A stretch of 64,000 nucleotides of DNA from Micromonospora zamorensis (GTDB taxonomy: Bacteria > Actinomycetota > Actinomycetes > Mycobacteriales > Micromonosporaceae), in contig NZ_LT607755.1 of NCBI RefSeq assembly GCF_900090275.1, positions 5,332,001-5,396,000 on the forward strand. The letters run 5' to 3'. The translations under genes were made by a program, and so were the position numbers. Positions 21,645 to 58,751 of the stretch are shown one piece after another. Below the pieces are notes generated by a model. The model ran no database searches and had not been told where the DNA came from. It saw only the letters and a list, made by a program, of their open reading frames with translations. Within the stretch, counting starts at the first letter, position 1; every line of letters starts with the position of its first letter.

Positions 21645-21699
21645 GATCATGAAGTTATTGCCAGCTCAATCGGCGTGTCGCGGCAATAACTTCATGATC
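21645..21699. repeat. Palindromic element, TGATCA family, copy 1 (convergent sdhB/Nudix)
   Basis: Two perfect 18-bp arms, GATCATGAAGTTATTGCC (21645-21662) and its complement (21682-21699), flank a 19-bp spacer. The outer edge reads TGATCA on the right and supplies the stop codon of the convergent Nudix gene. It shares the edge GATCA(T/A)GA(A/G)GTT with the elements at 39572 and 58696. Confidence 0.85.
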
Positions 21700-22147
21700 A
21701 ACGGGAGCTGGGGGGCCGCAGGAGGGGGCGGAGGGCGGCGACGATGGGGGCGTCGGCGGGGAGCCAGGTGACCGAGTCCAGTTCGTCGGCCGTGAGCCAG
21801 CGCAGCGCCTCGTGTTCCAACGCCTGGGGCTCCTCGCCGTCGAGCAGGCGGGCCGCGTACACCTTGAGCACCGAACGGCCGTGCGCCATCCGTACGTCAC
21901 GGCCGACCCGGTCGCCGATCTCGACGCGTACGGCCAGCTCCTCGACGCACTCCCGGATCAGCGCGTCGATCTCCGCCTCGCCCGGCTCGACCTTTCCGCC
22001 CGGAAACTCCCACATTCCTGCCACTTCGGGTGGGGCGGAACGCGCGCAGGCGAGCACCCGCCCGTCCCGGATTATCGCCGCGCCGACGATCACCTTCAGG
22101 TCCCGTCGTTCGACCTGCCCGCCACCATTCGCCCGTTCGGTCCGCAC
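21698..22147 (-). CDS. Nudix hydrolase (MutT-like)
   Basis: This 149-residue protein carries the Nudix box G-x5-E-x7-RE-x-x-EE (Gly51 to Glu70; GKVEPGEAEIDALIRECVEEL). The preceding WEFPGG is typical of 8-oxo-dGTP pyrophosphatases of the MutT group. It should hydrolyse oxidised or other nucleoside diphosphate derivatives in the cytoplasm. Its TGA stop lies in the outer edge of the palindromic element, so the final codons abut a repeat. It is convergent with sdhB. Confidence 0.9.
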   Translation of the reverse strand: MRTERANGGGQVERRDLKVIVGAAIIRDGRVLACARSAPPEVAGMWEFPGGKVEPGEAEIDALIRECVEELAVRVEIGDRVGRDVRMAHGRSVLKVYAARLLDGEEPQALEHEALRWLTADELDSVTWLPADAPIVAALRPLLRPPSSR

Positions 22148-22330
22148 GGGCGTCCAGGGTGCCAGATCAATCGGCGGTTTGGGTACCGTAGCCGTCCGCT
22201 AGGCCAACAGAACACGGAAGTGTGGGCGTGGACACCCCCTCCGCGCGGCGAGAGACTAGAGGACACCGACAAGACACGGGATGGCGACGATTTGGCCACA
22301 AGCCGGCAACGGCGCTTGGGGGGTGCGGTG

Positions 22331-22639
22331 ATGCGCGTGCTGTTCAACAGCAGGGCCAAGCACGACTACCTTGCCGACGCGTTGACCTTGCTGTCTGGTT
22401 GGACACGCGAGGGGGAGCAGATCCGACGGACGCTCGCGATCGACGATACCCAACACGCGGCACTAACTGAACGGGTCAAGGTGGTCGCAGATGCGCTGCA
22501 CCTTCGCCCGGAGATCAGCCGGCAGTCCGACAGCACCCAGATCCGGGTCGGGCACGGCAACGGTGAACCGCTGACCGAGGGCGAGGTCCTGTTGGCCGCC
22601 CGCATCGAGGACGCCTACCGGGCGGTCACCGAGGCCTGA
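22331..22639 (+). CDS. Pterin-4a-carbinolamine dehydratase-like protein, degenerate active site
   Basis: A 102-residue protein with the PCD fold pattern: LTLLSGWTREGEQIRRTL, a long helix, then IRVGHGNGEPLTEGEVLLAARIEDAY, where the usual sequence is (T/S)H-xxGLTxxDxxxAxxID. His75 matches the second conserved histidine. The paired HHP of active dehydratases is replaced by LRP (58-60, preceded by His57). It may therefore be a non-catalytic or divergent member; DcoH-type proteins also act as dimerisation cofactors. The start may be the GTG one codon earlier. The family call rests on pattern resemblance only. Confidence 0.6.
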   Translation: MRVLFNSRAKHDYLADALTLLSGWTREGEQIRRTLAIDDTQHAALTERVKVVADALHLRPEISRQSDSTQIRVGHGNGEPLTEGEVLLAARIEDAYRAVTEA

Positions 22640-22668
22640 GCTTCTACTGGTTGGTAAGTCTGAGGTTT

Positions 22669-22756
22669 TCCTGAAAAGCACTGGGGTACCAGTTCCACGC
22701 GGGAGTTGACAAAGCTCTCGCGAAGGACCGAACTACTCAAACAGTGCTTTTCAGGA
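22669..22756 (+). promoter_or_regulatory. Long inverted repeat covering the ribosome-binding site of the next gene
   Basis: TCCTGAAAAGCACT (22669-22682) is perfectly complementary to AGTGCTTTTCAGGA (22743-22756). The right arm includes the AGGA ribosome site of the ATG at 22763. A second short pair, ACTGGT near 22647 and ACCAGT near 22689, lies outside and inside the left arm. If transcription starts upstream of 22669, the arms could sequester the ribosome site. TTGACA at 22706 is an alternative promoter that would leave out the left arm. Confidence 0.5.
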
Positions 22757-22762
22757 GCTGAC

Positions 22763-23086
22763 ATGACCACCCCCACGCAGAACCGCGCCAACGACCACGT
22801 CGAGCACGCCGGCCAGCACGACGTCCGCCGCGTGAACCGCCGCGGCGACGAGACGAAGCCGTCCTGGAAGACCAGCGAGCTGGCGATCTACGTGCTCGCC
22901 GTCATCGGTGTGCTGATCGCCTCGAACGCCGTCGGCGACGGCGCCGCGAACGACGGCGGCGACTACTTCGCCGCCGACAAGGCCTGGTGGTACATCACCC
23001 TGCTCACCATCGGCTACCTGGTGAGCCGGGGTCTGGCCAAGGCCGGCAGCCGCAGCACGGACCACGACCCGCGCAGCGACCACTGA
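22763..23086 (+). CDS. Small two-helix membrane protein behind an inverted repeat
   Basis: A 107-residue protein with a charged, His/Arg-rich N-terminus (about residues 1-38) and two membrane helices (about 42-60, LAIYVLAVIGVLIASNAVG, and 76-95, WYITLLTIGYLVSRGLAKAG). The loop between them is rich in Gly and Asp and the tail is acidic and basic (STDHDPRSDH). The ATG is preceded by CAGGAGCTGAC, part of the long inverted repeat. No family is recognised. The same two-helix plan occurs in the small proteins at 25965 and 26363. Confidence 0.7.
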   Translation: MTTPTQNRANDHVEHAGQHDVRRVNRRGDETKPSWKTSELAIYVLAVIGVLIASNAVGDGAANDGGDYFAADKAWWYITLLTIGYLVSRGLAKAGSRSTDHDPRSDH

Positions 23087-23095
23087 CCTGTCGCC

Positions 23096-23140
23096 GAAGC
23101 CCCGCGCCCGCCCGTCTCTGACAGGCAGGCGCGGGGCTTC
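23096..23140. terminator. Bidirectional hairpin terminator
   Basis: Perfect 13-bp arms, GAAGCCCCGCGCC and its complement, lie between a + strand gene and the convergent VOC gene, 10 bp after the stop of the former. Confidence 0.75.
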
Positions 23141-23165
23141 CGCATGTCCGTCAGGCAGCTGGGGC

Positions 23166-23594
23166 TCACCGGTCGGCTACGGCGTCCTGCGGGTACCAGC
23201 GCAGCTCCACCGAGTTTCCGTCCGGGTCCTGCACGTAGATGGAGGTCGCCGAACCACGGGCACCGAACCGGTCCACCGGCCCGGTCAGCACCGTGAAGAC
23301 CCCTGATCCGGTTACTTCGGCCCAGTCCAGCGGTGCCACCACCAGGCAGAAGTGGTCGACGTTCGTGCCCTGCCGCTCGCCACGGACCAGGTCGATGATG
23401 CTGTCGCGGCTGATCCGCACGGACGGGAACGGGACGGTGCCCGCGCGCCACTCATCGACCCGCACCGACTCCAGGCCGAGTCGGCCGCAGTAGAAGCCCA
23501 GTGCCCGTTCCACGTCGGCGACGGTCAGCACCAGGTGGTCGAAGCCGGTTACCCGTACCGCGCTGACGTCCGCCCGCTGTTCGTGGATGCTCAT
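23166..23594 (-). CDS. VOC (glyoxalase/bleomycin-resistance) family protein
   Basis: A 142-residue VOC protein with two beta-alpha-beta-beta-beta modules: FDHLVLTVADVERALGFYCGRLGL opens the first and VDHFCLVVAPLDW the second. It ends in YVQDPDGNSVELRW, the usual metal-ligand region (Glu). Likely metal ligands are the two His of the FDH and VDH motifs and the C-terminal Glu. Members include glyoxalases, dioxygenases and antibiotic-binding proteins; the substrate cannot be told. It is divergent from a LysR gene, which probably regulates it. Confidence 0.85.
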   Translation of the reverse strand: MSIHEQRADVSAVRVTGFDHLVLTVADVERALGFYCGRLGLESVRVDEWRAGTVPFPSVRISRDSIIDLVRGERQGTNVDHFCLVVAPLDWAEVTGSGVFTVLTGPVDRFGARGSATSIYVQDPDGNSVELRWYPQDAVADR

Positions 23595-23677
23595 GTCGCA
23601 GCCTTTCGCTCGGTGTTTCCTGCCGCGTTCACGATCCCCGGACGGGAGACGCCGACCAAGAGCCGATATCGCTACGA

Positions 23678-23688
23678 TTGTTGCCCAC
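23678..23688. promoter_or_regulatory. Possible LysR-type operator
   Basis: The small palindrome ATCG-CTA-CGAT lies 10 bp upstream of the LysR start in the 103-bp divergent gap. It is short and its spacing is T-N9-A rather than the classic T-N11-A, so the call is tentative. Confidence 0.25.
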
Positions 23689-23697
23689 AGGTCAACG

Positions 23698-24612
23698 ATG
23701 GGGGCGGACGTGCTGGAGCGGTACGAGGTCGAGACGTTCCTGACCCTCGCCGAGGAGCTGCACTTCGGCCGCACCGCCGAGCGACTGACCGTCAGCACCG
23801 GCCGGGTCAGCCACGTGATCAAGAAGCTGGAGCGTCGGATCGGCGCACCGCTGTTCGCCCGCACCAGCCGGGTCGTCCGGCTCACCCCGATCGGCCGGCA
23901 ACTCGCCGACGAGCTGGCCCCACTGGTTGCCGGGATGGAGGAGGCCGTCCTCCGGGCCGTCGACGCCGGCCGGGGCGTCACCGGGACCCTACGGGTGGCG
24001 TTCCTCGGCGAGTGGACCGCACCGGTGCTGCTGCGGGCCGTGGCCCTGTTCAGCGAGCGGCATCCCGACTGCCAGGTCGAGGTGCGGGAGGCGCAGCTGG
24101 CCAACACGCGGTCCGGCCTCCTGGACGGCTCCACCGACGTACTCATCGCCTCGTTTCCCTTCGACGGGATGGCCACCGGCCCGGCGCTGCTCTCCGAGGA
24201 CCGGGCGCTGGCGGTCGCGGCGGGTCACCCGCTCACCCGGGAACGCTCGGTGTCGCTGGAGGTCCTCGCCGACCACCCGGTGGTGCAGTACCCGGCAGTG
24301 ACCTCGGTGGAGTTCAAACGGGACCGCACCCCGGAGCGCACCCCGGCCGGCCGGCCGGTGCCGAAGGGACCCGCCGGGAACACCTTCTCCGAGATGCTGT
24401 CCCTGGTCGCACTGGGCCGGGGCGTCCTGCCGGTGGGTGAGCACACGAGGCGCTACTACCCCCGCCCCGACGTGGCGTACGTGCCCATCCACGACGCGCC
24501 ACCGATCGAGCGAGGGCCGGTCTGGCTGCCCAGCAACACCACCACCCGGGTACGCGAGTTCGTCCGCGCCGCGACCGACGCGAACGCCGGCACGTTGGCA
24601 CCGGTTTTCTAG
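23698..24612 (+). CDS. LysR-family transcriptional regulator
   Basis: This 304-residue protein has the LysR helix-turn-helix (about residues 6-64; VETFLTLAEELHFGRTAERLTVS, KKLERRIGAPLFAR). A substrate-binding-type effector domain follows from about residue 95 (GTLRVAFLGEWTAPVLLRAVALFSERHPDCQVEV). A GTG four codons downstream, behind GGGGGCG, would begin directly at VLERYEVETF and is an equally good start. It is divergent from the VOC gene, its most likely target. Confidence 0.88.
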   Translation: MGADVLERYEVETFLTLAEELHFGRTAERLTVSTGRVSHVIKKLERRIGAPLFARTSRVVRLTPIGRQLADELAPLVAGMEEAVLRAVDAGRGVTGTLRVAFLGEWTAPVLLRAVALFSERHPDCQVEVREAQLANTRSGLLDGSTDVLIASFPFDGMATGPALLSEDRALAVAAGHPLTRERSVSLEVLADHPVVQYPAVTSVEFKRDRTPERTPAGRPVPKGPAGNTFSEMLSLVALGRGVLPVGEHTRRYYPRPDVAYVPIHDAPPIERGPVWLPSNTTTRVREFVRAATDANAGTLAPVF

Positions 24613-24622
24613 CCTGGATCTC

Positions 24623-24985
24623 ATGGCGAACATCGCGTACGACCGCAAAGAGCAGGTCCAGCAGATCGAGAGTGGCCTTCTCGAGGGTGAGCAGATCATC
24701 GCCGTCTACGACGCGGTCGGCACCGGCACCGGGTTCATCGGGCTGACCGACCGCCGGGTGATCATCCAGGACCGTTCCTTCGTCGGGAAGCGGTTCGCGA
24801 TCACCAGCATCCCGTACTCGAAGATCACCAGCGTGAGTGTGGTCAGCAACAAGTCCTGGGGTGGCTCGTTCTTCTCCACCGGGGCGATCGCGATCCACGT
24901 CGGCACGCACACCTACGAGGTGGAGTTCCGTGGCGCGCAGAAGAGCCACCACGTGCACAACGTGATCCTGCACCACATCTCCTGA
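24623..24985 (+). CDS. Bacterial PH-domain protein
   Basis: A 120-residue soluble protein with the bacterial PH-like pattern: GEQIIAVYDAVGTGTGFIGLTDRRVIIQD, then YSKITSVSVVSNKSWGGSFFSTGAIAIHVG, ending in an amphipathic helix (KSHHVHNVILHHIS). These proteins form seven-stranded barrels and often occur at membranes or as oligomers; the ligand is unknown. It begins 10 bp after the LysR stop, so it may be co-transcribed. Confidence 0.8.
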   Translation: MANIAYDRKEQVQQIESGLLEGEQIIAVYDAVGTGTGFIGLTDRRVIIQDRSFVGKRFAITSIPYSKITSVSVVSNKSWGGSFFSTGAIAIHVGTHTYEVEFRGAQKSHHVHNVILHHIS

Positions 24986-25085
24986 CCGCACGTCCCGTCC
25001 TGGGCCCGGCTGGCGTAATTGCCTTGCCGGGCCTGCGGCGTCTCTGGTGTCCTCGGTCGACAGCCGTGCGAAGGGAGCAGCCACC

Positions 25086-25127
25086 ATGCCAGACACGACG
25101 AGGTCCCACGAACCCACCGTCATCTGA
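25086..25127 (+). CDS. Possible 13-codon leader peptide
   Basis: A minimal ORF encoding MPDTTRSHEPTVI behind GAAGGGAGCAGCCACC, 78 bp before the methyltransferase start. It has a plausible ribosome site and nothing else competes in this 220-bp gap. It resembles neither a known attenuator peptide nor a RiPP precursor and may be chance. Confidence 0.25.
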   Translation: MPDTTRSHEPTVI

Positions 25128-25205
25128 CCTGAGGAATCGAGGCTTCGTGAGCACTACCGCTCCCCTGGCGCTGAGCGCCACTGAACCCAACCCCGGAGGC
25201 CGCTG

Positions 25206-25937
25206 ATGTCGGTCTTCGACGATCCCGGCCTCTTCGGCCGGCTCTGGGCCGCCGACTATGACGGCCCCGGCAACCCCGACCCGGCGCCAGCGGTGGACTT
25301 CCTGGCCGATCTGGCCGACGGGGGGCCGGTTCTCGAACTGGCGATCGGCACCGGCCGGGTCGCACTTCCGCTGGCCGAGCGCGGTCTCACCGTGCACGGT
25401 GTCGAGGCGTCCGAGGAGATGGTGGCGCAGTTGCGGGCCAAGCCCGGCGGCGACCAGATCCCGGTCGTCGTCGCCGACATGGCGGACGTGCCGGTGAAGG
25501 GTGAGTTCCGGCTCGCGTACCTGGTCTTCAACACGCTGTTCAACCTGGTGGACGCCGAGCGGCAGGCGGACTGCTTCCGCAACGTCGCCCGCGTGCTGTC
25601 GCCCGGCGGCGCGTTCGTCATCGAGACGTTCGTGCCCGACCCGCGCGACTTCGACTCGGACGAGCAGGTGCAGGTGCGGTCCGTGACCGAAGACTCCGCG
25701 ACGATCCGGCTGCACAAGTACGACCGGCCGGCGCAGCGGTTCATCCGGCAGACCATCACCTTCGACGCCGAGGGTGTGCACCTGTTGCCGTTCGCCATGC
25801 GGTACGCCTGGCCACACCAGATCGACGAGATGGCGCAGCAGGCGGGGCTCCGGCTCACCGAACGGTACGCCGACTGGCAGCGGCGACCGTTCCACGCCGA
25901 CAGCCCGTCGCACATCTCCGTCTACCGGGCGGAGTAA
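25206..25937 (+). CDS. Class I SAM-dependent methyltransferase
   Basis: The 243-residue protein has motif I VLELAIGTGRVALPLAERG (from about residue 42), an acidic post-I loop (VHGVEASEEMV), VVADMADVP for motif II, and RVLSPGGAFVIETF for motif III. This is a standard Rossmann methyltransferase of the small-molecule type. The acceptor is not predictable. GGAGGCCGCTG precedes the ATG. Similar stand-alone methyltransferases are common in actinobacteria. Confidence 0.87.
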   Translation: MSVFDDPGLFGRLWAADYDGPGNPDPAPAVDFLADLADGGPVLELAIGTGRVALPLAERGLTVHGVEASEEMVAQLRAKPGGDQIPVVVADMADVPVKGEFRLAYLVFNTLFNLVDAERQADCFRNVARVLSPGGAFVIETFVPDPRDFDSDEQVQVRSVTEDSATIRLHKYDRPAQRFIRQTITFDAEGVHLLPFAMRYAWPHQIDEMAQQAGLRLTERYADWQRRPFHADSPSHISVYRAE

Positions 25938-25964
25938 CGGTTCGGTCGAAAGTGAGGTGCCGCC

Positions 25965-26165
25965 ATGAGCAAACGAGCCATCCAGGCAGTCCTGGCCCTG
26001 TCGGTCGTCCTGATGGCCACCGGCATCATCCTCAAAGTGACCGGCGACGGCGGCGCCGACACCGCCGGCACGGTGGCGGTGTCGCTCGCCTCGGTGGGTT
26101 CGATCGTGGCCGCCATCGGCTCGTCCTTCCGCGCTGCCCGCGAGGACGACAGCCCGCACCGGTGA
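25965..26165 (+). CDS. Two-helix membrane miniprotein, paralogue A
   Basis: A 66-residue protein that starts MSKRAIQAVLALSVVLMATG. It has helices at about 5-25 and 35-54, a Gly/Asp loop between them, and a charged tail (RAAREDDSPHR). GTGAGGTG lies in front of the ATG. The architecture and several positions match the next small protein (26363), so the pair look like tandem paralogues. The function is unknown. Confidence 0.6.
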   Translation: MSKRAIQAVLALSVVLMATGIILKVTGDGGADTAGTVAVSLASVGSIVAAIGSSFRAAREDDSPHR

Positions 26166-26362
26166 TCCGGCTGTCGCGCTGCCCGATCAGACGGATCCCA
26201 GCGGCAACGAGCTGCGCGTCCGGGCCGATGAGGACAGCGCGGTCAGCTCAGCGGTAGATGGATTTCGGTCCACAAGGGCACGGGCGTGGATGTGTCACTG
26301 TGGGTACGACGCCCCGCCACCGAGGGGACGGGGTCGATCTCCGCCAGCGGAAGCGACTGCCC

Positions 26363-26647
26363 ATGATGTTCAAACGAGCCGATCTGGCCGTCCTGACGCT
26401 GGCGCTCGGCCTGCTGATCGTCGGCTACATCCTGCGGGACGACGTGCACGGCACGGCCGCAACGGTCGGCCGGGTGCTGGTGCCGCTCGGCTACATCTGC
26501 GGCATGATCGCCGGTATCGGCCCCGCTCGCCGCGCCAGGCGCGAGAACAACCGATTACGAGCGGTACTGCTCGGCGGCGACACCGCACCCGTTGCAGACG
26601 AGCGCCCGGGCCAGCCTCGCGCCGAGGACACCCACCCGGACCGGTAG
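26363..26647 (+). CDS. Two-helix membrane miniprotein, paralogue B, contains a TTA codon
   Basis: A 94-residue protein: MMFKRADLAVLTLALGLLIVG, a short loop (DDVHGTAATVG), a second helix (VLVPLGYICGMIAGIGPA) and a basic, hydrophilic tail. It resembles paralogue A over the helices. Leu65 is encoded by TTA (26555-26557), so translation may depend on the bldA tRNA. The start is uncertain: a much longer in-frame ORF extends upstream, but conserved-looking sequence begins at the double ATG. Confidence 0.55.
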   Translation: MMFKRADLAVLTLALGLLIVGYILRDDVHGTAATVGRVLVPLGYICGMIAGIGPARRARRENNRLRAVLLGGDTAPVADERPGQPRAEDTHPDR

Positions 26648-26728
26648 TTCGAACGTTTCGCGCTCGGCTGATTCTGCTGCCAGCAGCCTTTCTTGAATCG
26701 TCGGGCCCGCGCCGGGTGAGCTGGCAGC

Positions 26729-28009
26729 ATGCCAACAGACGCCGCCCGTTTCCCACGCTCCTCGCCGTACTGGCCGGTGGTCAGTCACCCACAACTCCGG
26801 CGCGTCCTGCCCGGGCTAGCCGTGTCCGCGTTGGGCGACGGCATGGCGGTGGTCGCGGTGCCGTGGCTCGCCATCCAACTCGCCCCGCACGGTCAGCGCG
26901 GCCTCTGGATCGCGGTGGCCATGGCGGCGTACACAGTGCCCAGCGCGGCCGGGACGGTCGTCTTCGGGCGGTTGCTGCGTGGGCGCGGTGGCGCGCAGCT
27001 CGCCGGGTGGGACGCGATCCTGCGGGCCTCCGCCCTCGCGGCGATCCCTCTCGCCCACCTCGCCGGCGTGCTCACCATCGGGCTGTACGTGGCCCTGCTG
27101 GCCGCGTCGGCGCTGCTGCACTCGTGGGGCTCCGCCGGCCGGTTCACCCTGATCGCCGAACTGCTGCCGCAGCGGCACCATCTGCCGGCCAATGCCGTGC
27201 TCAGCACCATCGGAGGGTTCGCCACCATCGTCGGCCCGCCACTGGCGGGCATCCTGATCGGCTGGGTGGGGCCGGTCTGGGTCATCGCCATCGACGCCGC
27301 CACCTTCGCCGCGCTGGCCCTCACGTACCGTCTCGCCCTTCCCGCCAACGACGGACCCGCACGGTCCGAGAGCGGCGCTTCGCGAACGGCCGGCTTCGCT
27401 GTCATCCGCCAGAACCCGGCCCTGCTGGGCCTGCTCGTGCTGAGCCTCGGGTTCTTCTTCCTCTTCGGACCGGTGTACGTGGCGATGCCGATCCACATCA
27501 CCGACGACCTGCACGCCACCGCGATGCTGCTCGGGGCCTACTACACCGCGTTCGGCGTCGGCGGCCTCACTGGAGGTCTGGTCGCCGGTTACCTCCGCCG
27601 CTGGCCACTGCGAGCCACCACCATCGGCATCGTCGTCGCGTTCGGCGTCGCCATGCTGCCGCTCGGCCTGGGCGCACCGGTCGGTGTGTCGTTGCCGGCG
27701 TTCGCCCTGGCGGGCTTCATCTGGGCGCCGTACATGTCCACGTCGATGGCGCTGTTCCAGCGCAGCACGTCGACCGCCCAGCTGCCCGCGGTGCTCGCCG
27801 CGAACGGTGCCATCCTCGTGCTGGCGGTGCCGCTGGGCACCATGCTGGGCGGGCCGCTGGTGGGTGCCATCGGCCCCCGACCGACGCTGCTGGTCTGCGC
27901 CGTGGCGATCGTGGCCCTCGGCCTGATCGCCGGGGCAATCGCTATCCCCAGGCGGAGCTCGCGATTGCCCGGCGATGCAGCCGTCACCGAGGTCAGTGCC
28001 AGTCGCTGA
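26729..28009 (+). CDS. MFS transporter
   Basis: A 426-residue integral membrane protein with about 12 predicted helices and an early LRRVLPGLAVSALGDGMAVVAVPWLAIQL helix typical of macrolide/tetracycline-type efflux MFS members. The middle loop (about 208-222) is hydrophilic. The likely role is proton-driven export of a small molecule; the substrate is unknown. Its 3' end overlaps the convergent SRPBCC gene by 17 bp. Confidence 0.88.
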   Translation: MPTDAARFPRSSPYWPVVSHPQLRRVLPGLAVSALGDGMAVVAVPWLAIQLAPHGQRGLWIAVAMAAYTVPSAAGTVVFGRLLRGRGGAQLAGWDAILRASALAAIPLAHLAGVLTIGLYVALLAASALLHSWGSAGRFTLIAELLPQRHHLPANAVLSTIGGFATIVGPPLAGILIGWVGPVWVIAIDAATFAALALTYRLALPANDGPARSESGASRTAGFAVIRQNPALLGLLVLSLGFFFLFGPVYVAMPIHITDDLHATAMLLGAYYTAFGVGGLTGGLVAGYLRRWPLRATTIGIVVAFGVAMLPLGLGAPVGVSLPAFALAGFIWAPYMSTSMALFQRSTSTAQLPAVLAANGAILVLAVPLGTMLGGPLVGAIGPRPTLLVCAVAIVALGLIAGAIAIPRRSSRLPGDAAVTEVSASR

Positions 28010-28436: not shown

Positions 28437-28438
28437 TC

Positions 28439-29244: not shown

Positions 29245-29259
29245 GAGCCTCAACCTTTC

Positions 29260-29319
29260 GCAACCTTTGGTTGCACTCAACCTACGACAGCTCAACGCCC
29301 TCGCGCAACCTTTAGTTGC
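29260..29319. promoter_or_regulatory. Paired ArsR-type operators
   Basis: Two near-identical palindromes, GCAAC-CTTTG-GTTGC (29260-29274) and GCAAC-CTTTA-GTTGC (29305-29319), start 45 bp apart in the 107-bp gap between the AHSA1 operon and a divergent VOC gene. Each has perfect 5-bp arms. They are well placed for autoregulation by the ArsR protein of the operon and possibly for control of both directions. Confidence 0.7.
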
Positions 29320-29351
29320 ATGTTGCGGTCGCGTCGTACCCGGGGAGCACA

Positions 29352-29735: not shown

Positions 29736-29747
29736 GGACGCGCACCC

Positions 29748-30350: not shown

Positions 30351-30368
30351 CCGGTTCGCGGAGATCGG

Positions 30369-31196: not shown

Positions 31197-31243
31197 CCGC
31201 GCCTGCCGGTGTGAAAGCACGACGAGGCCGACGTCCGGACGTC

Positions 31244-38534: not shown

Positions 38535-40025
38535 ATGGAGATGGACTTCGAGCGGTGTTACCGGGCTGTGGACAGCCGTGACCAGCGGTTCGACGGCTGG
38601 TTCTACACCGGCGTGACGTCCACCGGCATCTACTGCCGGCCGTCCTGTCCGGCGATCACGCCGAAGCGGAAGAACGTCCGGTTCTTCCCGTCCGCCGCCG
38701 CGGCGCAGGGTGCCGGACTGCGCGCCTGTCGCCGCTGCCGGCCCGACGCCGCGCCCGGCTCGCCGCAGTGGGACATCCGCGCCGACGTGGTCGGCCGGGC
38801 GATGCGGTTGATCGCGGACGGGGTGATCGACCGGGATGGCGTACCGGGGTTGGCCTCCCGTCTGGGCTACACCGAACGGCACCTGCACCGGATGCTGAGC
38901 GCCGAAATGGGCGCCGGGCCGCTGGCGCTGGCCCGGGCCCAGCGAGCGCAGACCGCCCGGATCCTGATCGAGACGACCGACCTCGGGATGGCCGAGATCG
39001 CGTTCGCCGCGGGCTTCGGCAGCGTGCGACAGTTCAACGACACGCTCCGCGAGGTGTACGCGAGCGCCCCGTCCGACCTGCGCGCGGCCCGTGGGCGCCA
39101 GCAGGCGGCGGTCGGGGCGGGGACCATCGCGCTCCGGCTGGCGTACCGCCCGCCGCTGCACGCCCGGGCGCTGCTGGACTTCCTCACGGTGCGGGCGTTG
39201 CCCGGTGTGGAGGAGGTTCGCGACGGGACGTACCACCGGGGTCTGCGGTTGCCACACGGCACCGGCGAGGTGGCGCTGACCCCGGCGGACGGGCACGTGG
39301 CGGCGACGCTGCGGCTGACCGACCTGCGCGACCTGGCACCCGCTGTGGCCCGCTGTCGCCGGCTGCTCGACCTGGACGCGGACCCGGTGGCGATCGACGG
39401 CACGCTCGCGGCGGACCCGGCGCTGGCGCCGGCGGTCGCCGCCGAGCCCGGCATTCGGGTGCCCCGCGCGGTGGACGGCTTCGAAATGGCCGTCCGCGCC
39501 GTCGTCGGCCAACAGATCTCGGTAACCGCAGCCCAAAAGATCCTGACCCGTCTCCTGGCCGCCCATGACCCCGTTGATCATGAGGTTGACGAAGCCGATG
39601 GAGATCGAACTCCAGGCCAACCTCATGATCAACGCGGCGAGGGCGGGCTGCGGGGGTTTTTGAGCGCGGACGAGCTGCTGCGCGTGCCGGACTCCGGGTT
39701 CGGGATGCCGGTGGGGCGGCGGGAGACGTTGCGAGGGCTGGCGCGGGCCGTCACCGACGGGACGGTCGACCTGGCGCCTGGGGTGGATCGGGAGGAAGCC
39801 GTGCGGCGGCTGCTCGCCCTGCCCGGCATCGGCCCGTGGACCGCCAATTACCTGGCCATGCGCGCCTTCGGCGACCCCGACATCCTGCTCAGCACCGACC
39901 TCGCGGTCCGGCGCGGCGCCGCCGCGCTCGGCCTGCCCGACACCCAACAAACCCTCGACGGGTACGCCGACCGTTGGCGTCCCTGGCGGTCCTACGCCAC
40001 GATCAGACTCTGGAGAGCGGCATGA
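38535..40025 (+). CDS. Ada-type methyl-sensor fused to AlkA 3-methyladenine DNA glycosylase
   Basis: A 496-residue fusion. Residues 1-75 form the Ada zinc domain, with Cys34, 38, 65 and 68 as ligands and methyl-phosphotriester acceptor. Residues 80-185 are an AraC-type helix-turn-helix (LASRLGYTERHLHRMLSAEMG). Residues 195-496 are the AlkA N-domain and HhH-GPD glycosylase (VDGFEMAVRAVVGQQISV; ALPGIGPWTANYLAMRAFGDPDILLSTDLAVRR). It senses alkylation damage, activates repair genes and excises alkylated bases. Residues 346-367 are encoded by a palindromic element inserted in frame (39572-39634). The gene overlaps the following alkyltransferase. Confidence 0.92.
   Translation: MEMDFERCYRAVDSRDQRFDGWFYTGVTSTGIYCRPSCPAITPKRKNVRFFPSAAAAQGAGLRACRRCRPDAAPGSPQWDIRADVVGRAMRLIADGVIDRDGVPGLASRLGYTERHLHRMLSAEMGAGPLALARAQRAQTARILIETTDLGMAEIAFAAGFGSVRQFNDTLREVYASAPSDLRAARGRQQAAVGAGTIALRLAYRPPLHARALLDFLTVRALPGVEEVRDGTYHRGLRLPHGTGEVALTPADGHVAATLRLTDLRDLAPAVARCRRLLDLDADPVAIDGTLAADPALAPAVAAEPGIRVPRAVDGFEMAVRAVVGQQISVTAAQKILTRLLAAHDPVDHEVDEADGDRTPGQPHDQRGEGGLRGFLSADELLRVPDSGFGMPVGRRETLRGLARAVTDGTVDLAPGVDREEAVRRLLALPGIGPWTANYLAMRAFGDPDILLSTDLAVRRGAAALGLPDTQQTLDGYADRWRPWRSYATIRLWRAA
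39572..39634. repeat. Palindromic element, TGATCA family, copy 2 (inside alkA domain)
   Basis: Perfect 17-bp arms, CGTTGATCATGAGGTTG (39572-39588) and its complement (39618-39634), surround a 29-bp spacer with its own small hairpin (TGGAG/CTCCA). The element is 63 bp, exactly 21 codons, and keeps the Ada-AlkA frame open. It shares its edge with the copies at 21645 and 58696. Confidence 0.85.
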
Positions 40026-52295: not shown

Positions 52296-52632
52296 GGTGC
52301 CCAGCGTAGGGAGTGCGGGCCTGCCTGAGACACCGGCGCGCCCCCGGCGCTTCCCTGATCCTTGGCGTAGCGGACCCCTAAGGTCCCCCTGCCCTGCTGC
52401 TGGGGAGGTGTTTCCGCAGTCCGGCGCCCGGCGCCACCCCACCTCGGAAAAAGCCCATCGGGGGTGGGACGATTCACGTTCCGTTCAACGGGCAGTAATC
52501 GGGCAGTCGTCAGTGAGGGCTGGCGGATCCGATCCGGCGGTGCTCCCGCCCGTCGAGGTCGTGGAGTGGCGCCCTCGACCGATCGGCGGTCGGCTGCGAA
52601 ACTGTGTGCCGGTCAGCGAGTGGGGGGTGTGG
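52296..52632. other. 337-bp divergent gap with no gene
   Basis: This gap separates the ABC-2 cluster (minus) from the APS kinase fusion (plus). It contains a small palindrome GGACC-CCTAA-GGTCC, a repeat of CGGGCAGT (two copies near 52480-52505) and the GGGGGGTGTGG ribosome site of the next gene. No ORF with coding character was found. It should hold both promoters. Confidence 0.5.
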
Positions 52633-54162
52633 ATGAGCAACGGCTGGGTGCTGCCCGACGAGGTGCTGCGGGACGCACCGGCGTACACGCCGCGTCCGGG
52701 TGAGCTCGCGGATCTGGAGCTGCTGCTGACTGGCGCGTACGCCCCTCTGAACGGCTTCATGACCCGCGCTGACCTGGTCTCGGTGAGCCGACGCGGCCGG
52801 CTGGCCGACGGCTCGCCGTGGCAGGTCGCGGTGACCCTCCAGGTGCCGGCCGCCCTGGCGCAGAGTTTCGATCCGCGCGACCCGGCCCGTCGGGCGCTGG
52901 TGCTCACCGACGGCGAGGGCGCCCCGACGGCTGCCCTGGACGTGGCGGACGTCTGGCCGGTCCGCGAAGGCGTGGCGGGGGTCGGCGGCCAGGTCCGGCG
53001 ACTGGGCGACGGTGGTCACGGCCCGTTCCAACGGCTGCGCCGCAGCCCGGAAGAGGTCCGCGCGCTGCTGCCCCCGGGCCGGGTGCTCGGCGTCATCGCC
53101 GATCGGCCGCTGCATCGTCCGCAGCTCGCCCAGATCGCCCATGCCGCCCGCACCCTGGCCGCGCACCTGCTCGTGATGATCCCGGTCGGTGAGGGTGGCG
53201 TCGGCGGACTCCCGCCGGAGGCGCTGGTACGCGCCGTCTTCGCCGCCCGCGACCGGATGCCGCCCGCCACCCTGGTCGCGGTGCCGTTGTCGCACCGACA
53301 GGAGGAGATCAGCGACGCGCTGCTGCGCGCCCGGGTCTCCGCCTCGTACGGGGTCACCCACCTGCTCTCCACCGGCGAGATGCTCTCCGGTGCCGGGCTG
53401 CGGGTGCTGGTGCCGCGCGAGCTGGCGTACGACAACCGGGACGGGCAGTGGCGCTGGCGGGAGGACATCCCACCGCGCAACCGTCGGCTCGCGTTGACCC
53501 AGCAGGAGATCGACGACCTGCTCGACCGGGGTTTCCCGTTGCCGGAGTGGCACACCCCGCCAGCCGTGGCGAGGGAGCTGGCCCGGGCCCGGCCGCCGCG
53601 CCGGCACCGGGGGCTGGTGGTCTTCATGACCGGCCTCTCCGGTTCCGGCAAGTCGACGATCGCCCGAGGGTTGGCGGACGCGTTGCGCGAGAGCGGCGAC
53701 CGGACGGTGACACTGCTCGACGGGGACGTGGTGCGGCGGGAACTCTCCGCCGGGCTGGGCTTCAGCAAGGCCGACCGGGATCTCAACGTCCGACGGATCG
53801 GCTGGGTGGCCGCCGAGGTCGCCCGGCACCACGGGGTGGGCATCTGCTGCCCGATCGCCCCGTACGCGGCCGCCCGCGCCACTGCCCGTGAGATGGCCCT
53901 GGCCGCCGGTGCGGGTTTCGTGCTGGTGCACGTCGCCACCCCGCTGGAGGTGTGCGAGCGGCGGGACCGCAAGGGCCTGTACGCGCGGGCACGGGCGGGC
54001 CTGCTCACCGGGATGACCGGCATCGACGACCCGTACGAGGAGCCGACCGACGCCGACCTGGTGCTCGACACCACCGACCTGAGCGTCCCGGACGCGGTGC
54101 AGGCGGTGCTGCACCACCTGACCGAGACCGGCTGGGTGGAGCTGAAGATCGCCTCCGCCTGA
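52633..54162 (+). CDS. APS kinase fused to a degenerate ATP-sulfurylase-like domain
   Basis: The 509-residue protein starts behind GGGGGGTGTGG. The C-terminal domain is a full APS kinase: P-loop GLSGSGKST at 334-342, DGDVVRRELSAGLGFSKADRDLNVRRIG, PYAAARA, and lid KGLYARARAGLLTGMTGIDDPYE. The N-terminal half (about 1-300) is ATP-sulfurylase-like (LLTGAYAPLNGFMTRADL; LSTGEMLSGAGLRVL) but the catalytic QxRN/HxxH motif is replaced by RPLHRPQL (158-165). It should make PAPS from APS and ATP; sulfurylase activity is doubtful, so the first half may be regulatory. No cysD/cysN or transporter is adjacent. Confidence 0.88.
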   Translation: MSNGWVLPDEVLRDAPAYTPRPGELADLELLLTGAYAPLNGFMTRADLVSVSRRGRLADGSPWQVAVTLQVPAALAQSFDPRDPARRALVLTDGEGAPTAALDVADVWPVREGVAGVGGQVRRLGDGGHGPFQRLRRSPEEVRALLPPGRVLGVIADRPLHRPQLAQIAHAARTLAAHLLVMIPVGEGGVGGLPPEALVRAVFAARDRMPPATLVAVPLSHRQEEISDALLRARVSASYGVTHLLSTGEMLSGAGLRVLVPRELAYDNRDGQWRWREDIPPRNRRLALTQQEIDDLLDRGFPLPEWHTPPAVARELARARPPRRHRGLVVFMTGLSGSGKSTIARGLADALRESGDRTVTLLDGDVVRRELSAGLGFSKADRDLNVRRIGWVAAEVARHHGVGICCPIAPYAAARATAREMALAAGAGFVLVHVATPLEVCERRDRKGLYARARAGLLTGMTGIDDPYEEPTDADLVLDTTDLSVPDAVQAVLHHLTETGWVELKIASA

Positions 54163-54209
54163 GGCGTCGCCGTGCCCCCGTTCCTTCCACAGCTGCCCGC
54201 CACGCGCTA

Positions 54210-54231
54210 GTGTTCATCTTTGTTGGAACAC
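54210..54231. promoter_or_regulatory. Putative DeoR operator upstream of the regulator gene
   Basis: GTGTTC and GAACAC, perfect 6-bp arms 10 bp apart, lie 44 bp before the DeoR ATG. DeoR-family regulators typically autoregulate from such sites. Binding is inferred. Confidence 0.45.
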
Positions 54232-54274
54232 GTTTGACCGCGTGAGAGTACGGGGACCCCCGGGAGGCACGGCA

Positions 54275-55099
54275 ATGCTCGCTCAGCAGCGGCAGGTGGC
54301 CATCCTGGAGCGGGTCCGGTCGACCGGCGGCGTCCGGGTGAGCGAGCTGGCCACCGAGTTCGGTGTCTCCGACATGACCATCCGCCGTGACCTGGAGGCG
54401 TTGCACGAGCGCGGCCTGCTGGCCAAGGTGCACGGCGGCGCCACCACAGCCGGGCCGGGGTCCACCGACGAGCCGGGCTTCCACGCCAAGTCGGTCCGCC
54501 AACTGCCGGAGAAGGCCGCCATCGCGGACCGGGCCGCCCAGCTCGTCCGGCCGGGCGCGGCGGTCGCCCTCTCCGCCGGCACCACCACCGCCGAGCTGGC
54601 CCGGAGGTTGGTGGACGTGCCCGGCCTGACAGTGGTGACCAACTCGCTGCCGGTGGCCGAGATCCTGCACGCCGGAGGTCGACCGGACCAGACGGTGGTG
54701 CTCACCGGGGGCGTACGCACACCGTCGGACGCGTTGGTCGGCCCACTCGCGGTCGGTGCGGTCCGGTCGCTGCACCTGGATCTGCTCTTCCTGGGCGTGC
54801 ACGGCATCACCGAGCGGGCCGGCTTCACCACCCCGAACCTCATGGAGGCGGAGACCGACCGGGCGCTCGTGGCCGCGGCGGACCGGTTGGTGGTGCTCGC
54901 CGACCACACCAAGTGGGGCACGGTGGGCATCTCCTCGATCGTCGAGCTGGCCGCCGCACACGTACTGGTCAGCGACGACCGGTTGCCTCCGCCCGCTCGA
55001 CGGGTACTCGGCGAACACGTGGGCGAATTGATCATGGTGAAGGCAACAGGGGCGGGCCGCGCGACGCGCACGCCGATGAGTGAGGGGACGGCGCCGTGA
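54275..55099 (+). CDS. DeoR-family transcriptional regulator of sugar metabolism
   Basis: This 274-residue protein has the DeoR helix-turn-helix (about residues 5-55; GGVRVSELATEFGVSDMTIRRDLEALHERGLLAKVHGGA) and a DeoRC sugar-phosphate-binding domain (VALSAGTTTAELARRL, VVTNSLPVAEIL). GGGAGGCACGGCA precedes the ATG. It overlaps galT by 4 bp, so the likely signal is a galactose-pathway phosphate. An upstream GTG gives an unconserved leader. Confidence 0.9.
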   Translation: MLAQQRQVAILERVRSTGGVRVSELATEFGVSDMTIRRDLEALHERGLLAKVHGGATTAGPGSTDEPGFHAKSVRQLPEKAAIADRAAQLVRPGAAVALSAGTTTAELARRLVDVPGLTVVTNSLPVAEILHAGGRPDQTVVLTGGVRTPSDALVGPLAVGAVRSLHLDLLFLGVHGITERAGFTTPNLMEAETDRALVAAADRLVVLADHTKWGTVGISSIVELAAAHVLVSDDRLPPPARRVLGEHVGELIMVKATGAGRATRTPMSEGTAP

Positions 55100-56172
55100 A
55101 GCGCACCGCGATCGACCTGGCCGACGGCCGGGAGCTGATCTACTTCGACGAGCGCGACGACGCCGTCCGCGACCAGCCGGACCGCCGCGACCTGCCGCCG
55201 CCGCCTCCCGCGTCCCAACTGCGTTACGACCCGCTGACCGACGAGTGGGTGGCGGTCGCCGTGCACCGGCAGACCCGCATCTTCCTCCCGCCGGCGAACG
55301 AGTGCCCGCTCGACCCGTCGGTGGGCGACCGGCTGACCGAGATCCCCGCGCCCGACTACGACGTGGTGGTCTTCGAGAACCGGTTCCCGTCGCTGAGCGG
55401 CCGGGTCGCCGACGAGCCCGGGGAGATCACCCCGTTCACGTCGGTCCGGCCGGGCCTCGGGCGGTGCGAGGTGGTCTGCTTCACCTCGGACCACAACGCG
55501 TCCTTCGCCAGCCTGCCCCCGCGCCGGGTCCGCACGGTGCTGGACGCGCTCGCCGACCGCACCGAGGTGCTCGGTGACCTGCCCGGCGTGGAGCAGGTCT
55601 TCTGCTTCGAGAACCGGGGCGTCGAAATCGGCGTCACACTGCACCACCCGCACGGGCAGATCTACGCGTACCCCTTCGTAACGCCGCGCACCCGCGCGCT
55701 GCTGGCCGCGGCCCGCCGGCACGCCGAGCGGACCGGCGGGGGCAACCTGTACGCGGACGTGCTGGCCGCCGAGCGCGCCACCGGCGACCGGGTGGTCACC
55801 GAGAACGAACACTGGACGGCGTTCGTCCCGGCGGCGGCCCGTTGGCCGTTCGAGGTGCACGTCGCGCCGCGCCGGGTGGTGCCGGACATCCCGGCGCTCA
55901 GCGACAGCGAGCGGGACGCCTTCGGGCCGCTCTACCTGGATCTGCTGCGCCGCTTCGACGGCCTGTTCGACATGCCGATGCCGTACATCTCGGCCTGGCA
56001 CCAGGCGCCGGTGCGCATCGACCGGGAGCTCGGCCACCTGCACCTTCAGCTGTTCAGCATCCGGCGCGCCAAGGACAAGCTGAAGTATCTGGCGGGCTCC
56101 GAGTCCGGGATGGGTGTCTTCATCAACGACATCTCCCCGGAACGCGCCGCCGAGCTGCTGCGCGCCGCCTGA
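55096..56172 (+). CDS. galT: Galactose-1-phosphate uridylyltransferase
   Basis: A 358-residue HIT-superfamily enzyme with the catalytic HPHGQ motif at 184-188 (His186 is the uridylylated residue) and the C-terminal histidine pair LGHLHLQLF. It exchanges UMP between UDP-glucose and galactose-1-phosphate in the Leloir pathway. The start is a GTG overlapping the DeoR stop. No galK follows; the next sequence is a terminator and a gene remnant, so galactokinase must be elsewhere. Confidence 0.95.
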   Translation: MKRTAIDLADGRELIYFDERDDAVRDQPDRRDLPPPPPASQLRYDPLTDEWVAVAVHRQTRIFLPPANECPLDPSVGDRLTEIPAPDYDVVVFENRFPSLSGRVADEPGEITPFTSVRPGLGRCEVVCFTSDHNASFASLPPRRVRTVLDALADRTEVLGDLPGVEQVFCFENRGVEIGVTLHHPHGQIYAYPFVTPRTRALLAAARRHAERTGGGNLYADVLAAERATGDRVVTENEHWTAFVPAAARWPFEVHVAPRRVVPDIPALSDSERDAFGPLYLDLLRRFDGLFDMPMPYISAWHQAPVRIDRELGHLHLQLFSIRRAKDKLKYLAGSESGMGVFINDISPERAAELLRAA

Positions 56173-56239
56173 GCCGAGCTGCTTTCCCGCCCTGCGGTGA
56201 GCGCTGCGAAACCCCGCGCTGAGCGCTGCGAAACAGGGC

Positions 56240-56267
56240 GCGGGGGGCCCGGGACAGGGCCCCCCGC
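56240..56267 (+). terminator. Hairpin terminator after galT
   Basis: Perfect 11-bp arms, GCGGGGGGCCC and its complement, flank the loop GGGACA. Just upstream the 14-mer GAGCGCTGCGAAAC occurs twice in tandem (about 56202 and 56221). Confidence 0.7.
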
Positions 56268-56344
56268 AGGGAAGGGACGGCTGGCTGTGCACGGCACAGC
56301 CGGGAAGGCTGGCTGATCGGCGCACGGGTGCCGCGGGTCGACCG

Positions 56345-56413
56345 AGGTCAACCTTCCTGGACGCGACTGGCATCTCGTCCATCCTGGTCAACGAGGCGCG
56401 CCGACGGCGGTGA
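56345..56413 (+). pseudogene. Remnant of a STAS-domain (anti-anti-sigma) gene
   Basis: In one frame the sequence reads RSTFLDATGISSILVNEA and then RRRR-stop, matching the core STAS phosphorylation-site motif (F-L-D-s/a-t/s-G-I-x-x-L). No start codon, ribosome site or N-terminal half remains, so this is a decayed fragment between galT and icd. It may be the end of a deleted gene. The STAS assignment rests on one motif. Confidence 0.5.
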
Positions 56414-56446
56414 CGACCCTCGGCGCGTCAGCCCCGGACACGCCGA

Positions 56447-56474
56447 AGCCCGCCGGCTGAGACGCCGGCGGGCT
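56447..56474. terminator. Hairpin terminator downstream of icd
   Basis: Eleven-base arms, AGCCCGCCGGC and its complement, around the loop TGAGAC, lie 22 bp beyond the end of icd on the minus strand. Confidence 0.75.
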
Positions 56475-56496
56475 CCGATGATGCGGTACGCCTGGA

Positions 56497-57714
56497 TCAG
56501 GCGGCGATCTTACGGGCCAGGTTCTCGTCGAGCGCGTTCATGAACTCGTCGGTGGTCAGCCACGGGGCGTCCCGCGAGATGAGCAGCGAGAGGTCCTTGG
56601 TCATCTGGCCGCCTTCGACGGTGTCGACGATGACCTGCTCCAGGGTGTTGGCGAACTCGGTGACCGCCGGGGTGCCGTCCAGCTTGCCCCGGTGGGCCAG
56701 GCCCCGGGTCCAGGCGTAGATCGACGCGATCGGGTTGGTCGACGTCTTCTCACCCTTCTGGTACTGCCGGTAGTGCCGGGTGACAGTGCCGTGGGCGGCC
56801 TCGGCCTCGACGGTACGACCGTCCGGGGAGAGCAGGACGGAGGTCATCAGACCCAGCGAGCCGAAGCCCTGCGCGACGGTGTCGGACTGCACGTCACCGT
56901 CGTAGTTCTTGCAGGCCCAGACGTAGCCGCCCTCCCACTTGAGCGCGGCGGCGACCATGTCGTCGATCAGCCGGTGCTCGTAGGTGATGCCGGCGGCGTC
57001 GAACTCGGCCTTGAACTCGGCCTCGAACACCTCGGCGAAGAGGTCCTTGAACCGACCGTCGTACGCCTTGAGGATGGTGTTCTTGGTGGACAGGTAGACC
57101 GGGTAGTTGCGGTCCAGCCCGTAGCGGAACGACGCCCGGGCGAAGTCCCGGATCGACTCGTCGTAGTTGTACATGCCCATGGCGATGCCGCCGCCGGAGA
57201 AGTTGGCGACCTCCATCTCCATCGGCGCGCCACCGTCGGCGGGGGTGTAGGTGATGGTCACCGTGCCCGGGCCGGGGACGACGAAGTCGGTGGCCTTGTA
57301 CTGGTCACCGTGCGCGTGCCGGCCGATGATGATCGGCTTGGTCCAGCCGGGGACGAGCCGCGGCACGTTGGACATGATGATCGGCTCACGGAAGACGACG
57401 CCGCCGAGGATGTTGCGGATGGTGCCGTTGGGCGACCGCCACATCTTCTTCAGGCCGAACTCCTCGACCCGGGCCTCGTCCGGGGTGATGGTCGCGCACT
57501 TGACGCCGACGCCGTGCTCCTTGATGGCGTTGGCGGCGTCGATCGTGACCTGGTCGTCGGTCTCGTCGCGGTGCTGGATCGACAGGTCGTAGTAGTGCAG
57601 GTCGACGTCGAGGTAGGGCAGGATCAGCTGCTCCCGGATCTGCTTCCAGATGATCCGGGTCATCTCGTCGCCGTCGAGTTCAACGACCGGGTTGTTTACC
57701 TTGATCTTCGCCAT
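56497..57714 (-). CDS. icd: NADP-dependent isocitrate dehydrogenase
   Basis: This 405-residue enzyme has the eukaryote-like, dimeric NADP-IDH layout: [22 protein letters not shown] at the N-terminus, [17 protein letters not shown], and [13 protein letters not shown] near the C-terminus. It oxidatively decarboxylates isocitrate to 2-oxoglutarate. It has its own start behind GAGAGGAGCGCC and is divergent from the MBL gene. The length is typical of the dimeric form rather than the 740-residue monomeric form. Confidence 0.96.
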
Positions 57715-57852
57715 CGACCGGCGCTCCTCTCGGGGGACACGTGCTCAAGCAGTACGAGCGTACTGCAATTGGGCCGGCAGCCCCCAGCCGGCCTCGACCG
57801 ACCGGCGGAAACCGGGCTGCGCGGAACAGGAATGCCCTGGAATCATCGCCCG

Positions 57853-58698
57853 ATGCCACTGAACCGCACCCTTGGGTCTATCACGGTCACCGCACTCACC
57901 GACGGTGAGGGTGCCTTCTTCCAGCCCCGCGCGGAGGCGTTCCCGCAGGCCACGGCGGCGCACTGGGCGGAGGCCGACCGGCGCGACCCAGGCTCGGTGA
58001 CCGCCGACGGGCAGTGGTGGCTGCCGTTCCGCAGTTTTGCGATCCGCTCCGGCGACGGGCCGGTCACCCTGGTCGACGCCGGCATCGGGCCCGTCGACGC
58101 GCTGGCCGCGAGCTGGGCGCCCGTGCCCGGCCGGATGCCCGCCGAGCTGGCCGCGGCGGGCATCGACCCGGCCGACGTCGACACTGTCGTGCTGACCCAC
58201 CTGCACAGCGACCACATCGGTTGGGCCGTCACCGGCACGCCGGGCCGGCCGTACTTCCCGAACGCCAGCTATCTGGTGCAGCGCGCCGAGCTGGACGCGG
58301 CGGAGACGCTCAACCCCGGACTGCCGGCCGGCCTGATCGCACCCCTGCGCGCCGCCGGCCAGCTCCGGGTGGTCGACGGCGAGACCACTGTCACCCCGGC
58401 GGTACGCCTGCTGCCCACCCCCGGCCACACCCCGGGCCACCAGTCGGTGCTCCTGACCTCGGCTGACGAACGGATGCTGGTCACCGGCGACCTGCTGGTG
58501 CACGCCGTGCAACTCGTCGACCCCGACCTGGCGTACGCCCACGAGGTGGACCCGGACCTGGCCCGCACCTCCCGGCGGGCCACCCTGCGCACCCACTCCC
58601 CCACCGTCCTGGCCACCCCCCACCTGGCCACCCCCTTCACCCCGCTTCCCCACCCCACTCCCCGTGATCACCGGCCGGTCCCACCCCCACCCGGGTGA
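57853..58698 (+). CDS. MBL-fold metallo-hydrolase
   Basis: A 281-residue metallo-beta-lactamase-fold enzyme: metal motif HLHSDH, later His (PTPGHTPGHQS) and Asp (VTGDLLVH) ligands. It resembles lactonase/glyoxalase-type hydrolases of the AHL-lactonase group, but the substrate is unknown. The last 40 residues or so are Pro/His/Thr-rich and look recruited from non-coding sequence. The TGA stop is the first three bases of a palindromic element. It is divergent from icd and convergent with mdh. Confidence 0.87.
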   Translation: MPLNRTLGSITVTALTDGEGAFFQPRAEAFPQATAAHWAEADRRDPGSVTADGQWWLPFRSFAIRSGDGPVTLVDAGIGPVDALAASWAPVPGRMPAELAAAGIDPADVDTVVLTHLHSDHIGWAVTGTPGRPYFPNASYLVQRAELDAAETLNPGLPAGLIAPLRAAGQLRVVDGETTVTPAVRLLPTPGHTPGHQSVLLTSADERMLVTGDLLVHAVQLVDPDLAYAHEVDPDLARTSRRATLRTHSPTVLATPHLATPFTPLPHPTPRDHRPVPPPPG

Positions 58699-58751
58699 TC
58701 AAGAGGTTTGCGTCAGGAATCGCGGTCGCGGTGACGCAAACCTCTTGATCA
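58696..58751. repeat. Palindromic element, TGATCA family, copy 3 (convergent MBL/mdh)
   Basis: Perfect 20-bp arms, TGATCAAGAGGTTTGCGTCA (58696-58715) and its complement (58732-58751), flank a 16-bp spacer. The left edge TGA is the stop codon of the MBL gene. It shares GATCA(T/A)GA(A/G)GTT with the copies at 21645 and 39572. Confidence 0.88.

Follow-up and report, generated by a model that had tools for sequence, protein, structure and literature searches.

We analysed a stretch of 64,000 nucleotides from the chromosome of Micromonospora zamorensis (the window; positions 5332001-5396000 of the genome G000, which is one contig of 7,095,932 bp) and the three palindromes that lie in it. These palindromes belong to a Micromonospora family that is present in dozens of copies per genome, whose places are long kept and whose copies have their own sequence swapped for another version of the family. 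The three copies of the window (elements 1 to 3, of the types C, G and K described below; no strand is assigned to them) and the genes they touch are the following.

21644..21700, no strand: element 1 of type C, 57 bp, flanked by convergent genes, CGGCGTGTCG in its loop
21698..22147, minus strand: NUDIX gene; its stop codon TGA coincides with bases 1-3 of the right foot of element 1
38535..40025, plus strand: ada-alkA gene, domains Ada_Zn_binding, HTH_18 and AlkA_N, host of element 2
39575..39631, no strand: element 2 of type G, 57 bp or 19 codons, read in frame as part of ada-alkA, translated part VDHEVDEADGDRTPGQPHDQ
58696..58751, no strand: element 3 of type K, 56 bp with all 20 pairs perfect, flanked by convergent genes
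58696..58698, plus strand: stop codon of the upstream metallo-beta-lactamase fold open reading frame, given by the left foot (TGATCA) of element 3

All three palindromes claimed in the initial annotation were present (21644-21700, 39575-39631 and 58696-58751), and its statement that both arms had changed together was correct; the arms co-vary. According to Pfam, element 1 lies between the gene of a 2Fe-2S/4Fe-4S domain protein (plus strand) and that of the NUDIX protein (minus strand), and element 3 between the gene of a metallo-beta-lactamase fold protein (plus strand) and a lactate/malate dehydrogenase family gene (minus strand). The left foot of element 1 reads CGATCA, which breaks the outermost base pair. 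Element 2 is located downstream of the AlkA_N domain, and its pairing continues by CGT/ACG to 39572-39634. RNA folding of elements 1, 2 and 3 gave z = -7.3, -8.8 and -8.4 against shuffled sequences. With at most two mismatches, TGATCAWGARGTT had 8 matches in the window compared to 0.85 expected, a number reached by none of 100 shuffles, and two of the eight (6471 and 23816) were outside any palindrome. A search of the window with the curated Rfam families returned no match at gathering score.

To the claim that three copies in 64 kb imply many per genome, the chromosome gave a clear answer. The strict paired-arm pattern TGATCAWGARGTTN{14,44}AACYTCWTGATCA had 29 exact copies in G000 and none for the reversed control. 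The looser pattern GATCANGA...TCNTGATC had 58 matches (control 0), two of which (440748 and 1385391) were judged by eye to be outside the family, and a structural finder run on the DNA fetched around pattern matches recovered at least 53 copies. This list of 53, a lower bound, is the source of the lengths, flanks and neighbours given here. We also noticed that about 1.75-4.05 Mb of G000, a third of the chromosome, holds only 5 of the 53 listed copies. The search in other genomes that had been suggested showed the family to be genus-wide, with strict copies in 131 of 151 sampled genomes of Micromonospora (1-77 each) and none in the other 20. In a family-level sample, 40 of 200 genomes, in 6 of 44 genera, had a strict copy. 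The exact K-type pattern was found in at least 120 stretches of named genomes, all Micromonospora by title among the 80 matches listed. In draft genomes, some copies lie less than 100 bp from contig ends (G327:C26:2-57, L270 39-94 and others), and the draft counts may be too low.

A copy of the family is 56-57 bp long and consists of arms of 19-20 bp, each with the foot GKTGATCAWGARGTT at its outer edge, around a variable loop of 16-19 bp. The consensus layout is G[T/G]TGATCA[A/T]GA[A/G]GTT - inner arm - loop - inner arm' - AAC[C/T]TC[T/A]TGATCA[A/C]C, and the flanking G at -2 was present on the left in 50 and on the right in 51 of the 53 G000 copies. The main types are K (CAAGAGGTTTGCGTCA, mostly 56 bp), C (CATGAAGTTATTGCC, with a loop carrying GACACGCCG) and G (CATGAGGTTGACGGG, with GAGATCAA-like loops); hybrids occur besides them, and several types are found together in each genome. 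CAAGA-footed copies made up 29 of 53 in G000 and 3 of 46 in the relative G002, and copies whose two inner arms were two different recurrent words numbered 7 of 53 and 2 of 46, respectively. Some copies of one genome have loops in common, for example a pair 2.4 kb apart in G008. The view that the loop is always random was dropped, as K-type loops seem to have a weak common consensus. Loops with GAGCGCTC or GTAAGCGCTTAC, which may resemble LacI-type operators, are among those of G031, G115 and G149.

Several other repeats were observed around the family. Palindromes of other families with GATC feet (AAGATC..GCGCAA..AGGGAAAGTGCTGCC; GATCATGGAGTTATGGTGG; GATCCAGGATGTAGTGGCC) were found in G000 opposite G002 6688860, in G002 opposite G000 4158609, and in G012 and G054, and at times they occupy a place where a relative has the present family. 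Another palindrome family, longer at about 77 bp and with the feet TGATC[A/G]ACTCGG, is represented near an element in G000 (at about 5427.7 kb) and in its G002 counterpart. In 'one and a half' elements an arm is repeated beside a complete copy (L281 3841, L303 773, L306 1960, L347 6086 and L257 7409), with a unit of 22 bp (20 in L257), probably by slippage at the palindrome. We considered these arrangements of an arm, 2 nt and a full element as replacement intermediates and set this aside, since tandem duplication of one arm explains them.

Gene positions were classed with a home-made gene caller, and the intergenic bases in 464 kb of G000 served as background. As the initial annotation had proposed to ask, the copies could be divided into intergenic and genic ones, and they were mostly intergenic: in G000, 26 of 53 were in convergent gaps, 20 had co-directional and 3 divergent neighbours, 2 were inside genes and 2 were unclassed, and the corresponding numbers for the 46 copies of G002 were 21, 17, 2, 2 and 4. 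Convergent gaps make up 19% of intergenic bases, which gives a binomial p of ~1e-7 for G000 (26 of 49 intergenic copies) and of 3e-6 for G002, the latter computed with the G000 background. The nearest stop codon was at a median distance of 36 bp (G000) or 28 bp (G002), and the TGA of the foot was called as the stop codon of the neighbour for 6 of 53 and 5 of 46 copies. The second in-gene copy of G000 is in the gene at 2596790, which by eye looks like a helix-turn-helix regulator and is a candidate for one; the copy is in frame there and uses the reading frame VDHEV, as in alkA. The excess in convergent gaps, the short distance to stop codons and the strong hairpins would all fit bidirectional transcription terminators. 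However, the sequence shows no T-run behind the arms of any window element, separate GC-rich hairpins are present beside elements 1 and 3, and in-frame copies within alkA persist in many species, so we regard this function as very improbable. Our terminator scan takes only loops of 3-8, and the elements with their loops of 16-19 bp fall outside its range.

The most informative comparison was that of orthologous places in G000 and G002. We could class 38 of the 53 G000 places: 34 had a family copy in G002, 3 had none (among them 1604784 and 5605579) and one, 4158609, had a palindrome of another kind, a shared fraction that is biased upward because the G002 loci behind 28 of the 34 were partly picked for bearing a copy. 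In a contiguous 464 kb of G000, for which the G002 DNA was not picked for copies, all 9 G000 copies were matched, 7 within the first G002 stretch and 2 beyond it; in the reverse comparison, 7 of the 9 G002 copies of the region were matched, one faced an empty place and one (G002 6688860) another palindrome. The 34 shared pairs were divided equally: 17 had at most 4 arm differences and 17 had more. Among the 17 switched pairs, 14 differed in foot type (CAAGA/CATGA), all of them K in G000 and thus in one direction, and in 16 the loops were unrelated, judged by a threshold at the 95th percentile of non-orthologous pairs. The one other pair, at 2731230, had kept its loop while both arms had changed. 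Loops were above the threshold in 8 of the 17 pairs with like arms, and at 4195020 and 5314314 inner arms and loop were without any difference between the two genomes. The identity of the flanks was 91.9% for switched and 91.6% for unswitched pairs (16 each; 32 of the 34 pairs measured). The one-way differences in foot type, together with the CAAGA counts of 29 of 53 and 3 of 46, are as homogenisation within lineages predicts.

Turnover in place was also observed at single sites. At the DNA level, at least one recognisable foot was seen by eye at the alkA place in 32 of 35 genomes (none in G006, G009 and G018), in C, G and CAAGA-footed forms (the last in G008, G012 and G025). From 120 listed AlkA homologues, 117 were parsed and typed by amino-acid words (59 type G, 53 type C and 5 decayed), and on a tree built without the insert the 112 typed proteins required 30 type changes (shuffle mean 37), at least 9 of which were forced by well-supported branches. 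Proteins labelled M. zamorensis have both types (P0002 G, P0004 C). In P0083 and P0090, tandem GGVGP-like repeats follow right behind the element-coded part, and the whole linker is variable in length. At the site of element 3, 31 of 34 genomes were readable at the right flank; by eye, 24 had a copy or what remains of one, 12 of them with K feet and 12 with CATG feet, and 7 showed none, 3 of these being cut by a contig end. The loop in G034 and G054 agreed with that of G000 at 13 of 16 bases in reverse (4 and 3 forward), and from these sequences a loop inversion is probable. At the element 1 site, 17 sequences comprised 5 with a copy or remnant, one with another palindrome and 11 with none, and G002 has there a loop of like kind that is reversed and otherwise different. 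The site at 2596790 gave 15 copies or remnants (3 CAAGA-footed), 13 empty and 2 partial among 30 loci, with orthology less sure as the gene has paralogues. Places that stand empty in relatives exist, for example in 11 of the 17 sequences read for element 1 and at 1604784 and 5605579 in G002.

We then considered neighbouring copies. A search with exact feet for two copies separated by 13-43 or 44-74 bp found 80 doublets in 10 of 160 genomes and none in G000. Of the 79 spacers measured, 71 were within 1.3 bp of 16.5, 26.75, 37, 47.25 or 57.5 bp, centres that were picked after the data were seen, whereas 21% would be expected if the spacers were uniform. The best period was 10.28 bp. The doublets are partly non-independent (some are orthologous between species among the comparisons examined). 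With one spacer taken per similarity cluster (40 clusters and 4 known by length only), the resultant was 0.76, a value that none of 2000 uniform sets reached at any period from 5 to 15. Within single genomes, the resultants were 0.96 in G012 (17 spacers), 0.93 in G037 (8), 0.87 in G115 (18), 0.83 in G008 (12), 0.78 in G049 (13) and 0.77 in G003 (6). The orthologous doublets L399, L410 and L355 kept spacers of 26-27 bp though the spacer sequence had diverged. In L426 and L422 the two members of the doublet have a common loop, which indicates that local duplication makes some doublets, and in G012 at the element 3 site and in G003 at the element 1 site a doublet stands where relatives have one copy. 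The equal phase in unrelated spacers suggests a protein on one face of the helix as its simplest reason.

This phase could mean that a DNA-binding protein uses the palindromes as operator- or anchor-like sites, which selection would hold in place, and that the types track changes of the protein. The 10.3-bp spacing of neighbours across unrelated spacers, the constant spacers of L399, L410 and L355 and the identical loops and inner arms of 4195020 and 5314314 in G000 and G002 are in agreement with such sites. On the other hand, several types occur together in each genome, two copies are within coding sequence, 20 of 151 genomes are without a strict copy, and selection alone does not explain why some ten bases in two arms are replaced wholesale at many places; we therefore consider selected sites an unlikely account of the family, if less so than terminators.

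The initial annotation had suggested repetitive extragenic palindromic (REP) elements or miniature inverted-repeat transposable elements (MITEs) mobilised by a RAYT/TnpA transposase. The many copies, the genus-wide spread, the co-varying arms and the empty places agree with a REP- or MITE-like family; the RAYT part failed, as a Y1_Tnp (PF01797) search of G000 gave 0 matches, and RAYT/Y1 as mobiliser in this genome was rejected on that count. The same search had no match in G008 and G012, which have 66 and 60 strict copies. Y1_Tnp was found in 44 of 151 genomes, namely in 6 of 20 without and 38 of 131 with strict copies (counted by hand), so the presence of the family does not track it. Searches of one element against plasmids and of one against phages gave no match, which, with one type per collection, is weak evidence against such spread.

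Transposition with a strong site preference, in which a transposase excises and inserts palindromes and the old places (perhaps the foot) are favoured targets, is the main rival, and we hold it to be possible though clearly less probable than the exchange proposed below. The arms behave like terminal inverted repeats, copy number ranges from 0 to 77 among the 151 genomes, places without a copy exist, a change of type mostly affects the element as a whole (16 of 17), doublets stand at sites with a single copy in relatives, as at the element 3 site of G012 and the element 1 site of G003, and the helical spacing suggests a protein complex. Against it stand the absence of Y1_Tnp from G000, Y1_Tnp being the transposase family searched, and the fact that no partner gene was seen between matching ends: about 3.6 Mb of sequence (overlaps counted) contained 7 solo arms, no two of them in one locus, a count not aimed at other transposase families. 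In addition, the arms changed around a kept loop at 2731230, and no target duplication was readable, the flanks of filled and empty orthologous places having diverged.

The explanation that we favour, by a modest preponderance, is that these are REP/MITE-like palindromes at inherited positions which are overwritten by exchange between copies. An occupied place, typically about 30 bp beyond a stop codon, is inherited for a long time, and its content is often replaced while the flanks stay as they are. The replacement would occur by non-allelic exchange with another copy, either gene conversion or template switching aided by the hairpin. Mismatched arms would then be re-matched by template switching inside the hairpin, a step that would account for the joint change of both arms with no need for selection on single pairs. 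According to PMC8604942, template switching between inverted repeats yields homogenised arms and inverted spacers. Less certainly, a protein may bind at the feet; such a putative protein is suggested by the helical phase that neighbouring copies hold. That one dedicated protein both holds neighbours on one helix face and promotes the copying of one element over another at inherited places is a tentative proposal that we hold to be rather improbable, though not remote.

Several points weigh against exchange between copies. The donor copy was traced for none of the switched places; most loops are unique within the genome, and the sequence common to different types is only some 13 bp at either edge, which is short for homologous recombination. 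The upward bias of the shared fraction, and the 38 of 53 places it covers, also count here, as do the only 8 of 17 like-arm pairs whose loops exceed the threshold. In the alkA tree, 54 of 111 inner branches are weak and 6 and 9 of 500 shuffles were as low as observed, so that type is weakly clustered; an exchange of alkA between species by ordinary recombination would inflate the number of type changes as well. The foreign palindromes opposite 4158609 and G002 6688860 would fit a general hotspot equally well, and the 13 of 16 matches behind the loop inversion have to be read against the 12 that the closest of 22 unrelated K loops attains.

If such protein-promoted copying is true, it would represent a homing-like exchange system that has no mobile gene and makes dozens of scattered sites alike, those in coding sequence among them. 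The usual explanation for repeats of this size is transposition and decay; here position and sequence are uncoupled, also in a protein gene. The compensated arm changes, which one might wrongly take as a sign of selection on folded RNA, would get a simple account, and a protein is indicated by the helical steps between neighbours. Higgins is said to have proposed in 1988 that REP sequences evolve by gene conversion, an old proposal that becomes testable with closely related genomes.

In the open-licence PubMed Central (PMC) papers we found no account of the present family, foot sequences included, and the accessible text of PMC12306157 has no Micromonospora in it. REP elements and their doublets (REPINs) with RAYT are, according to PMC3116915 and PMC3733652, likewise hairpin-forming extragenic repeats, dispersed in at least tens of copies and frequently found downstream of genes, with doublets as possible units. 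In the present family, however, doublets are not the main unit (exact feet, spacers of 13-74 bp), both ends read G[T/G]TGATCA with no GTAG or CGTC tag, the arms of 19-20 bp exceed the stems of 5-13 bp (GTAG) or 8-9 bp (CGTC) given in Table 1 of PMC3733652, and G000 is without the Y1 transposase; moreover, position is kept while sequence switches, and spacers come in helical steps. In the passages of PMC3733652, GTAG repeats are listed for Proteobacteria, Cyanobacteria, Chloroflexi and the PVC group and CGTC repeats for five phyla, without Actinobacteria. Prokaryotic MITEs share the inverted-repeat ends (terminal inverted repeats here), the non-coding nature and occasional in-frame fusions, according to sections of PMC10969869; the present copies differ in being almost all palindrome around a loop of 16-19 bp. 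The same sections describe Rickettsia palindromic elements, which are palindromes in frame in protein genes, as in alkA and the gene at 2596790 here, but these are ~150 bp against 57 bp, and our family has only 2 in-gene copies among 53.

Two further systems resemble the turnover itself. The GC clusters of yeast mitochondrial DNA are palindromic repeats of ~42 bp that merge and shuffle, and excerpts of PMC4478555 name non-allelic recombination as a possible cause of their low divergence; they are mitochondrial, and wholesale replacement of types at orthologous places was not found described for them in these excerpts. Template-switch mutation at quasipalindromes likewise makes arms match and inverts spacers, according to PMC8604942, but it acts within one inverted repeat and alone imports no arms and loop of another copy. 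The nearest kinds are REP/REPIN elements, MITEs, Rickettsia palindromic elements and the yeast mitochondrial GC clusters, and it is by tag, stem length and RAYT presence, all three of which fail, that the Micromonospora palindromes are set apart from the GTAG and CGTC REPs.

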